Assembly: GCF_001618145.1 (NCBI RefSeq)
Contig: NZ_LQNF01000006.1
Coordinates: 124,001 to 188,000 of the forward strand
From: Oceanobacillus damuensis
GTDB lineage: Bacteria > Bacillota > Bacilli > Bacillales > Amphibacillaceae
Length of the DNA stretch: 64,000 bases
Direction of reading: 5' to 3'
Below are positions 3,541-6,404 of the stretch, one piece after another (the stretch's first letter is position 1; each line of letters starts with the position of its first letter). Made by a program: the position numbers and the translations under genes. Under the pieces are notes generated by a model. That model ran no database searches. It saw nothing but the letters and a program-made list of their open reading frames with translations, and was not told the origin of the DNA.

Positions 3541-3906
3541 CAATAATTCTACTTTCTAAGCACAAGATAAGTTTAAGCGTTTGACTGGGTTAAACTTAAA
3601 ATGACATCTATAGCATGCATCATGCATCCTTGTCAACTTAGGCAGCTTATTTCCAGACCTCCTAATTCTGTCTTCACTCTTCGAAGGTTGAGAAATAAGG
3701 TGAAAATCAGCACTTGAAAAAATTTTTGTCAACAATCAAAGAAGTGCTGCATATACTTAGGTTAGTAAAAGTTGCATTAAGGAAAACTATTTGTTGACAA
3801 CAAACTAATTGTCCTATAAACTACATTATAAAGTAGTCGCAGTATAATATCATTTACAAATAGATAAATTGCAGCTTTTCTATATATGGTTTGGAGGGAA
3901 TATCAG
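3541..3906 (+). other. Intergenic region, no gene seen
   Basis: No open frame of convincing composition on either strand. It holds a decayed 45-base match (3565-3609) to a segment at 45805, a 7-bp inverted repeat AGCACTT/AAGTGCT at 3709-3748, and a TTGACA (3794-3799) 15 bases before TATAAA (3815-3820) that could be the promoter of the following transporter. The 15-base spacer is short, so the promoter call is weak. Confidence 0.5.
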
Positions 3907-4713
3907 ATGGATAATATTTTGTTTGCTTTCTTGTTGACTTTGTTTGCAGGGCTTGCTACCGGGGTAGGGAGTTTACTTGCCTTCTTTGCCAAAACAACGA
4001 ATACTAAATTCCTATCTTTTGCATTAGGCTTATCTGCCGGCGTCATGATTTACGTTTCCATGGTGGAAATTTTCTTCAAAGCTAAAGATGCACTTACATC
4101 TTCAATGGGTGAAACACAGGGATACTGGTATACGATACTTGGCTTTTTTGCTGGTATGCTGTTGATCGGTTTAATTGATAGATTCATTCCTAAATATACG
4201 AACCCACACGAAGTTAAAAAAGTAGAGGATATGGAAAAACCGAAACAGCCAATGAACGATCCTGATTTGATGAAAATGGGGGTTTTTACCGCCCTTGCAA
4301 TAGGGATCCATAATTTTCCGGAAGGGATTGCGACCTTCATCTCGACATTGGAGGATCCGGCAATAGGGGTGGCCATTGCGATTGCTGTTGCCATCCATAA
4401 TGTACCTGAAGGAATTGCAGTGTCCGTTCCGATATATTATGCTACAGGTAACAAAAGAAAAGCGTTAAAGCTTTCTTTTCTGTCAGGATTGGCAGAACCA
4501 GTAGGAGCAGCTGTAGCATTCCTGATTTTAATGCCTTTTTTGAGCGAAACGTTATTTGGGATCATTTTCGCCATGGTAGCAGGAATTATGGTTTTCATTT
4601 CACTGGATGAATTACTTCCAGCAGCAAAAAGATATGATGAAACACATATGTCCATTTATGGAGTCATTGCTGGTATGGCTATTATGGCTGTCAGCTTAGT
4701 GTTATTGGTTTAA
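3907..4713 (+). CDS. ZIP family divalent metal transporter (ZupT-like)
   Basis: Integral membrane importer of about 268 aa for zinc or other divalent metals. About eight hydrophobic helices with a hydrophilic loop at about 90-120. The two ZIP signature metal-site motifs are present: HNFPEG (His135) in helix IV and HNVPEG (His164) in helix V. An ATG at 3886 is also in frame, but the GGAGGG ribosome site at 3893-3898 fits ATG 3907. It stands alone between rnr and smpB, an insertion relative to the B. subtilis order. No Zur box like those before znuA is visible upstream, so zinc control is not shown. Confidence 0.9.
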   Translation: MDNILFAFLLTLFAGLATGVGSLLAFFAKTTNTKFLSFALGLSAGVMIYVSMVEIFFKAKDALTSSMGETQGYWYTILGFFAGMLLIGLIDRFIPKYTNPHEVKKVEDMEKPKQPMNDPDLMKMGVFTALAIGIHNFPEGIATFISTLEDPAIGVAIAIAVAIHNVPEGIAVSVPIYYATGNKRKALKLSFLSGLAEPVGAAVAFLILMPFLSETLFGIIFAMVAGIMVFISLDELLPAAKRYDETHMSIYGVIAGMAIMAVSLVLLV

Positions 4714-4789: not shown

Positions 4790-5257
4790 ATGCCAAAAGG
4801 ACATGGAAAAACAATTACCCAAAATAAAAAAGCATCACATGATTACTTTATTGAGGAAACATATGAAGCAGGAATTGTATTACAGGGAACAGAGATAAAG
4901 TCGCTTCGCAATGGTCGTGTGAATTTGAAAGATTCCCATGCCAGAATAGACAGACATGGAGAGATACAGCTTGTAAATCTGCATATTGCTGAGTACGAGC
5001 AAGGGAACCGTTATAATCATGATCCGACCAGAACCCGCAAACTCCTGCTGCATCGTAAAGAAATTGATAAATTAATCGGATTAACCCAGCAGCAAGGCTA
5101 CGCACTTGTTCCATTGAAGATATATATTAAAAATGGATATGCGAAAGTGCTGATTGGTTTAGGGAAAGGTAAAAAGAAATACGACAAACGGGAGGATCTC
5201 AAACGGAAACAAATGAAACGTGATGTAGACCGTGCAATTAAGGAACATGTAAGATAA
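4790..5257 (+). CDS. smpB: SsrA-binding protein SmpB
   Basis: RNA-binding partner of tmRNA (155 aa), needed to load Ala-tmRNA on stalled ribosomes. The N-terminus carries the family motif around NKKASHDYF and [16 protein letters not shown]. The basic C-terminal tail ([10 protein letters not shown] onwards) is the part that enters the decoding centre in homologues. A GTAGGAGG ribosome site lies upstream. The tmRNA gene follows about 110 bases later with its own promoter. Confidence 0.97.
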
Positions 5258-5283: not shown

Positions 5284-5311
5284 TTGAATTTAGCTGGAAT
5301 TCTGTTATAAT
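5284..5311 (+). promoter_or_regulatory. Sigma-A type promoter of ssrA
   Basis: TTGAAT (5284-5289), 16-base spacer, TATAAT (5306-5311). This predicts a start near 5318 and a precursor leader of about 50 nt before the mature tmRNA. Confidence 0.7.
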
Positions 5312-5366
5312 AAGAGTTGCAGGATAATTTAATAATGCTCAAATTTACCGAGCGTTTCTCTTATAC

Positions 5367-6002
5367 GGGGACGTTACGGATTCGACAGGGGTAGTTTGAG
5401 CTCAGGTTGCACGTCGAGGTTACGACTCGTAAAACGTTACACGCCTATAATAACTGGCAAAAATAATCAACCTGCTTTAGCAGCTGCGTAAGTAGCCTAA
5501 AGCGATCCTTCCTGGCATCGCCCGTGTGGCAGATTGAAGGGTCTCAAATGAAGCGGGCTATACTGCCATCCACCGTCTGAGGATCGGTAGTTGAAATGAA
5601 TCAGACTAGCTGCTCTGAAGCCTGTTGATAGGCTGAAGAATAAGCGAATCATAATATATCAACTAAGCGTGTAGAGGCCTGAGTGCCGATATCTCTGGAC
5701 GTGGGTTCGATTAGTAATTTAGTCGCCTTTTGTGGCAACACAAAAGTGAAAATTCGGCTTTATCGGTGAAACCTAAGTTGCTTATAATATAGCAATAAGG
5801 CAATACCGAGTGGTATGTGGAGCAATCCAACAGCCATGTATCGACTCATAGGCTGCCTATTGGGTAGTACTAGGATACGAAATCCTGCCATTATGGTAAA
5901 TATATGTTTCGTATAAAACGCCGAAGGACCTTTCATATAGGTTCAAGATATAGTCAGTGCCATGACGAAAGCATGGATGAGCATGTCCCACCGTCTCCAC
6001 CA
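5367..6002 (+). ncRNA. ssrA: tmRNA (ssrA), split by a group I intron
   Basis: Transfer-messenger RNA that rescues stalled ribosomes and tags the product for proteolysis. Mature 5' end GGGGACG pairs with CGTCTCC before the encoded CCA (6000-6002). The tag reading frame is GGC at 5456 to TAA at 5489-5491 and encodes GKNNQPALAA, ending in the Ala-Ala seen by ClpXP. The T arm is interrupted: exon 1 (5367-5711) ends GTGGGTTCGAT and exon 2 (5986-6002, 17 nt) begins TCCCACC. Joining them restores a perfect T stem and a TTCGATT loop. Spliced length is 362 nt, normal for Bacillaceae. Confidence 0.95.
5712..5985 (+). other. Group I intron in the tmRNA T-loop
   Basis: A 274-nt self-splicing-type intron without an open frame. 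P1: exon CGAT (5708-5711) pairs with internal guide GTCG (5722-5725), placing the obligatory U-G wobble at the 5' splice site. P2 is a hairpin with a GCAA loop (5727-5746). P3: TTCGGC (5753-5758) with GCCGAA (5920-5925). P8: 5926-5930 with 5940-5944. P7: GACT (5843-5846) with AGTC (5952-5955), inside the hallmark AAGATATAGTC. P9: CCATG/CATGG (5960-5976). The terminal base is G5985. Extra hairpins between the P7 5' strand and the P3 3' strand suggest subgroup IA. Group I introns at this tmRNA site are known in Clostridium; this one has no homing endonuclease. Confidence 0.93.
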
Positions 6003-6025
6003 ATACATAATGTTGGTGGTTTTTT
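5997..6025 (+). terminator. Terminator of ssrA
   Basis: CCACCAA (5997-6003) pairs with TTGGTGG (6013-6019), then six T. The left arm is the 3' end of tmRNA itself, so the terminator must form before 3' processing. Confidence 0.88.
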
Positions 6026-6404
6026 GTTTTTCTAAAACATAAAAAACTTTCCTTCAAACAATAACTTCTTTTTTAAAGTCTCTTTACTGTACTTTCCATT
6101 TCTTGGGGTTCCATTGTTGTAATGGTTTAATATCCATTCGGTCCTTTTCCTTTTCCTATCTATTTTCAAAAATATGTAAATTCCTGTTAAAACTTTAAAC
6201 ACATCTATTCTTTCTCTGAATAAACCGTCTCTTGAAGATTTAGATAATAATTTCATAGTCAGAAGTAATTTTGTCCATAAAAAATGGATACTTTTTTAAT
6301 AAAATAGAACAAAACAGGTGCAAAATCCCAAGAATCGTTTGAGTATCACTTCTCCTGCTTGGTATATTTGCTACAATTACATATTGGTAATAAAGGGGAC
6401 AATT
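6026..6404 (+). other. Intergenic region between ssrA and the sensor kinase
   Basis: AT-rich, with no convincing gene. A minus-strand frame of 74 codons (6032-6256) lacks a ribosome site and has Lys/Leu-rich random-looking composition. A weak stem TCCAT/ATGGA followed by T-rich sequence lies at about 6276-6297. No integrase or attachment repeat is visible, although ssrA 3' ends are common integration sites. Confidence 0.45.

Follow-up and report, generated by a model that had tools for sequence, protein, structure and literature searches.

A group I intron of 274 nt (5712-5985) splits the T-loop of the ssrA gene of Oceanobacillus damuensis, which occupies positions 5367-6002 next to smpB. Positions are those of the window, the whole 64,000-nt stretch of DNA that we analysed. 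We consider it likely that the insert is a splicing group I ribozyme, that such introns move between species as the intron alone, and that the window's copy was probably acquired in this way.

The first 5.3 kb of the window presumably carry secG, an esterase gene, rnr, a gene for a ZIP-type transporter, and smpB followed by ssrA. These are provisional names for the open reading frames, and the 155-aa ORF directly upstream of ssrA is one that we take to be smpB. A smpB match adjoined ssrA in 59 of the 60 loci fetched, the single exception being a contig piece. The gene and its neighbour are organized as follows.

4790-5257, + strand: smpB, as we name it, the gene of the tmRNA partner protein, upstream of ssrA (155-aa ORF)
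5367-5711, + strand: ssrA 5' exon, ending at the sixth T-loop base (RF00023; ARAGORN on joined exons)
5456-5491, + strand: tag reading frame GKNNQPALAAA with its stop codon (ARAGORN)
5712-5985, + strand: group I intron of 274 nt, without a sense ORF of 50 aa or more (RF00028; empty sites; covariation; ORF list)
5986-6002, + strand: ssrA 3' exon, with the last T-loop base, the 3' strands of the T-stem and acceptor stem, and CCA (sequence reading; ARAGORN on joined exons)
5997-6025, + strand: terminator-like hairpin, CCACCAA (5997-6003) with TTGGTGG (6013-6019), followed by a T run (read from the sequence)

An earlier note on this DNA had proposed a group I intron within the tmRNA T-loop at 5712-5985, and searches with both covariance models bear this out. 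The tmRNA model RF00023 matches 5375-5713 with 146 bits and breaks off within the T-loop. The group I model RF00028 matches 5702-5976 over its full length (model positions 1-253 of 253, E 3.3e-11); its score of 48.8 bits falls just under the curated gathering score of 50, and the match is therefore not a gathering hit. ARAGORN reported no tmRNA across the whole window, and none in 5300-6050 with the intron kept. When 5300-5711 was joined to 5986-6050, it returned a standard tmRNA from 5367 to 6002 with the tag GKNNQPALAAA, together with an overlapping permuted reading, which we put down to the circular-topology setting. Read from the sequence, the acceptor stem is formed by 5367-5373 with 5992-5998 and contains the G3-U70 pair that is typical of alanine charging, and the CCA end of the gene is part of the stem of the terminator-like hairpin (5997-6025).

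The proposed boundaries hold as well. U5711 pairs with G5722 in P1, the last intron base is G5985, and joining U5711 to U5986 yields the T-arm GUGGG-UUCGAUU-CCCAC, with a stem of five pairs and a loop of seven bases. The insertion site lies between the sixth and seventh T-loop bases, which we read as position 7 of the survey by Nawrocki, Petrov and Williams (2025), one of the four known subsites given in its text (PMC11915505). Among 22 apparently intronless family loci fetched, the T-loop is uninterrupted in 21, the remaining locus (G014) being left unparsed. The joined sequence of the window, GGTTCGAT-TCCCACC, occurs exactly in 12 of these 21 loci, and the other 9 have a C at -1. Each of the 37 family introns has T as its first base and G as its last. 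C at -1 was found in none of the 37 interrupted genes; this base would preclude the usual U-G pair at the splice site. Eight intronless ssrA genes of the genus (L079, L083-L086, L088, L091, L094) lack an encoded CCA, and seven of them also have C at the -1 position of the T-loop.

To describe the fold, we positioned helices P1 to P9, P7.1 and P7.2 included, by hand on the window sequence and then counted the pairs over 47 introns. These were obtained by removing introns longer than 312 nt with their flanks (110 to 98), then those at least 87% identical to a retained one (98 to 47). The elements of the ribozyme are the following.

5708-5725, + strand: P1, in which the intron guide pairs with exon CGAU; the U5711-G5722 wobble marks the splice site (hand placement)
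5727-5746, + strand: P2 (double-sided changes in 5 of 7 pairs)
5753-5758, + strand: P3 5' strand, partner 5920-5925 (double-sided changes in 4 of 6 pairs)
5763-5809, + strand: P4 (5763-5767 with 5805-5809) around P5 (5772-5800) (hand placement, pair counts)
5812-5835, + strand: P6 and P6a, with a GCAA loop (hand placement, pair counts)
5843-5846, + strand: P7 5' strand, partner 5952-5955, in a pseudoknot with P3 (hand placement)
5853-5914, + strand: P7.1 (5853-5867) and P7.2 (5875-5914) (double-sided changes in 6 of 8 pairs of P7.2)
5920-5925, + strand: P3 3' strand (hand placement, pair counts)
5928-5942, + strand: P8 (hand placement, pair counts)
5945-5955, + strand: AAGATATAGTC, that is, J8/7 and the P7 3' strand (sequence reading, alignment)
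5960-5976, + strand: P9 (hand placement, pair counts)

Standard pairs occupy 98.5% of the 3289 cells counted in the 47 introns, and pairing falls to 33-39% when the partners are slid along. Double-sided changes were observed in 27 of the 70 pairs, against 13.5 in shuffles, and 0 of 500 shuffles were as high. The P3/P7 pseudoknot is present together with P4-P6, P8 and P9, and covariation supports the fold overall; P7 itself is invariant in the 47 rows and is thus neutral in this respect. In P1, six of the seven pairs are invariant in the 47 rows and the innermost is unpaired in 22. Part of this invariance comes from the search itself, as the pattern used to find the named rows fixes those bases. 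One pair of the exon T-stem covaries across the intron (U-A in 41 rows, C-G in 5, unpaired in 1). The pseudoknot-free fold of 5701-5991 is better than that of all 200 shuffles (z -4.9). We presume from P7.1 and P7.2 that the intron belongs to subgroup IA. The helices and the AAGATATAGTC hallmark (5945-5955) listed by the earlier note are thus found in place, and its statement that there is no homing endonuclease gene agrees with the ORF list, which contains no sense-strand ORF of at least 50 aa within the 274 nt. An RF00028 score slightly under the cut-off and a gene that ARAGORN misses are what a degenerate insert in a dead ssrA might give, but with helices both conserved and covarying, and with boundaries, acceptor stem and tag intact, we regard such a decayed gene as extremely improbable.

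In the splicing account that we favour, transcription of ssrA would give a precursor RNA with the 274-nt ribozyme inside its T-loop. By analogy with the group I family, the intron would fold around its P3-P9 core and bind guanosine in P7. Cleavage would occur 3' of U5711, which the U-G pair in P1 holds in place; U5711 would then be joined to U5986, restoring the seven-base T-loop. Since no P10 was seen, the exon T-stem that brackets the intron may be what keeps the splice sites together. The earlier note's view that charging or SmpB binding depends on splicing is plausible, although acceptor stem and T-stem could pair around the intron in the unspliced RNA.

The intron is widespread. By BLAST, a method by which very divergent introns could be missed, it is present in 37 of 159 family genomes and in 9 of 28 within the genus, with remnants in two more genomes; the genus members G070 and G073 gave no match at all in this family search. 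The 5' exon-intron junction pattern occurs in 87 of 397 sampled genomes of the order, representing 37 of 135 genera. A scan for named loci gave at least 118 stretches; among the 80 listed, 76 are NCBI Bacillaceae records, and in 71 of these the 3' boundary could be parsed; it was unparsed in 6 of the 80. Two candidates further away were set aside, L118 (Acidimicrobiales), in which neither exon side is present, and L174 (Deltaproteobacteria), which has no RF00028 match at E 0.01. In the tmRNA of the latter, the T-loop is interrupted by about 193 nt between clean exon ends, at about 3880-4080.

Intron-form tmRNA genes were reportedly the subject of a paper by Williams in 2002. The 2025 survey, as far as its main text goes, counts 883 of them, most at T-loop position 7 and those predominantly from Bacillota, with an endonuclease gene in 36 of the 883 (PMC11915505). 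Because that survey is so large, and its introns lie mostly at the same T-loop position, there mainly in Bacillota, the O. damuensis intron is of a known kind. It resembles those introns in position 7, the -1 U, the terminal G, the mainly Bacillota hosts and the usual lack of an endonuclease gene, and its 274 nt are similar to the founding mean of 293 nt (PMC11915505). Nothing structural differs; what is added here is movement from species to species, the main text of the survey containing no word starting with "horizontal" and leaving Oceanobacillus unnamed. These counts do not support the earlier note's view that tmRNA introns are rare, nor its suggestion that a Bacillaceae case may be undescribed.

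The clearest case of movement is provided by genome G067, whose intron belongs to the group of G079, G080 and G088 (donor-like at 13 of 13 diagnostic intron sites) and whose exons belong to that of G064 and G090 (of 31 diagnostic sites, 27 sister-like, 3 donor-like and 1 neither). The lineage switches between exon position -20 and intron base 3: the exon markers closest to the splice site, at -20, -21, -23 and -26, match its own group, and by the third base of the intron the sequence is donor-like. Grouping G067 with the donors is rejected by the host proteins smpB and rnr (AU p 2.9e-50) and also by the exon data (p 5.4e-5), while grouping G064 with G067 is rejected by the intron data (p 0.021); the intron data do not reject a group of the three donors without G067 (p 0.162). 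All groups submitted to AU tests, here and below, were chosen after the trees had been seen. Between G067 and G080, intron identity is 8 points above exon identity. G067 and O. polygoni (G079) also have in common an insert within the intron's P5 loop; it is a dispersed repeat of about 150 nt (L071, L072), with 12 matches each in G079 and G080, 3 in G067 and a single one in the genome of the window. A more distant copy lies in the same P5 loop of O. alkalisoli (L116), so inserts there can recur, which weakens the shared one as a marker. Purely vertical inheritance of all introns is rejected for G067 by the incongruence of intron, exons and host genes. At the level of sequence comparison, this incongruence shows that tmRNA introns of the set move between species as the intron alone. 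The earlier note had left the choice between an intron that is fixed and one mobilised in trans; this is narrowed to between-species movement, which holds for introns of the set and probably for the window's own copy.

In a comparison of 110 introns, among them duplicates from the same genomes, the closest to the window's is that of O. caeni (G066), with 95.6% identity, the next reaching 90.4%. The two introns are 94.9-95.6% identical, against 83.8-84.4% for the 5' exons and 71.3% for the stretch upstream. No other of the 666 pairs has intron identity exceeding exon identity by so wide a margin (+4.1 sd). Intron identity is the higher of the two in 245 of these pairs, mostly distant ones, and never in the ten pairs whose exon identity exceeds 94%. 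On the host tree of smpB and rnr, which covers 49 of 58 genomes (9 without a long rnr hit were left out), intron presence needs at least eight changes. The tree groups the window with G081 and G075, both without the intron, and the smpB and rnr proteins of the window resemble theirs more than they do the O. caeni proteins. G086, the sister of G066 (exon identity 97.2%), is without the intron as well.

Grouping the window with G066 and G086 is rejected by the host proteins (AU p 5.5e-111) and weakly by the exon data (p 0.030), which leave the window's place unsupported (33/29); the exon p of 3.2e-8 for the window with G066 alone mostly reflects the tie between G066 and G086. In the intron data, window and G066 do not form a supported clade (66/27). 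When the window was held with G079, G080 and G088, the intron data rejected this arrangement in the full set (p 5.9e-7) and without G067 (p 0.009), and did not reject it without G067 and G064 (p 0.091). The nearest exon markers of the window, at -17, -18, -20 and -21, are like those of its sisters G081 and G075, and so are 34 of the 47 markers overall, with 12 G066-like and 1 neither. Many of the G066-like markers of the 5' exon are located at -212 to -254 from the splice site; as this stretch resembles G066 and not the window's own relatives, ssrA itself may be mosaic.

Could the intron instead be old and vertically inherited in the genus, with repeated losses, its likeness to that of O. caeni resulting from slow evolution on both branches? 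Its spread through family and order would fit, the O. caeni intron branch is short, losses do occur (two genomes have intron remnants beside an intronless ssrA), and without G067 and G064 the intron data do not reject a host-like grouping. Against this, in 10 of 10 pairs above 94% exon identity the intron is not the more identical part, the reverse of what is seen for window and G066 (by 11 points) and for G067 and G080. Vertical inheritance cannot explain G067 either, and for the window we judge it unlikely. The window's copy was probably acquired by movement between species. Its nearest known relative is the O. caeni intron; direction and donor are inferred.

In the two genomes with remnants, G094 and G097 (L073, L074, L076), ssrA is intact, lacks the intron and has a terminator-like end; beyond it come a truncated intron and another 3' exon. 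The G094 remnant is split over two contigs, both carrying the same insertion sequence with its transposase-like gene, and we infer that it is continuous. These arrangements look like scars of ssrA 3'-end replacement. They are the only two in the 159 family genomes, and no further scar of this kind was found in the order, as each of the 63 genomes showing the 3' pattern also belongs to the 87 that show the 5' pattern (397 genomes, strict patterns). Such structures are what would be left by integrative elements that target the ssrA 3' end and swap the T-loop region, bringing the intron in or out, and the downstream flanks do differ among sister species. As an explanation of the window's intron this is nevertheless improbable, since window and G066 retain homologous downstream flanks at background identity (71.1% downstream, 71.3% upstream), no second 3' exon is present in the window, and the 63 genomes of the order with the 3' pattern all have the 5' pattern too.

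A donor elsewhere in the window's genome was also considered and rejected: the four other introns above the RF00028 cut-off share with the tmRNA intron only weak matches of at most 12-20 nt (E 0.05). They are group I introns too, but reside in protein genes, three in or behind a flagellin-like gene (G000:C22 60828-62616, L001-L003) and one in what we take, from its ORF, to be a ribonucleotide reductase-like gene (G000:C14 8829-9296, L004). Over about 300 nt, the second and third flagellin introns agree at 73% of positions. Behind the third lies another copy of the flagellin-like C-terminal end, which looks like a duplication of the intron together with the last exon. The sole Pfam match of the ORF behind the flagellin introns is a sub-threshold PD-(D/E)XK, and the later ORF at the ribonucleotide reductase-like locus has no Pfam match up to E 0.1.

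Among the titles listed in a literature search made mostly without subscription journals, none reports horizontal movement of tmRNA introns. The cyanobacterial tRNA-Leu(UAA) introns are comparable, being group I introns in a small structural RNA, and horizontal intron transfer is reportedly named in the title of a 2002 paper on them by Rudi et al. Unlike the tmRNA intron, they have an anticodon-loop site and belong to another subgroup. The Bacillus flagellin, recA and nrd introns are likewise group I and from Bacillales but sit in protein genes, and the 2014 review that treats them speaks of little evidence for bacterial intron movement among species (PMC3984707).

Concerning the route, the nearest exon markers keep the recipient state, so the intron would have changed host together with fewer than about 17-20 nt of the 5' exon. 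No exon co-conversion was seen down to -17 in the window and -20 in G067; shorter tracts, or tracts from an unsampled donor, would escape this comparison, and if such a donor had exons like the window's, co-conversion would go unseen. For group I introns, the route that has been demonstrated is homing. Movement by an endonuclease that is free-standing and acts in trans, with very short conversion tracts, is a serious possibility, to which we give somewhat less than an even chance. Endonuclease genes do occur in 36 of the 883 tmRNA introns of the survey (PMC11915505), but the window's intron has none, and the markers at -17 and -20 retain the recipient state. More tentatively, we propose, as a route that is rather doubtful at present, that endonuclease-free tmRNA introns spread via RNA: the excised intron would reverse-splice into the tmRNA T-loop of a new host and be copied to DNA, leaving the recipient exons intact as far as the splice sites. 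The transfer of little exon would fit reverse splicing into the recipient's own tmRNA; according to the 2014 review, there is no direct experimental evidence for this route (PMC3984707).

A gene for ribosome rescue that is whole only after an intron has folded out is striking, and already documented. Since ARAGORN misses ssrA in the window, annotation of the tmRNA can fail in such species. What is useful is a set of closely related species, some carrying the intron and others lacking it, in which one clear and one probable change of lineage concern the intron and not the exons. These species pairs make the route by which endonuclease-free group I introns spread testable.
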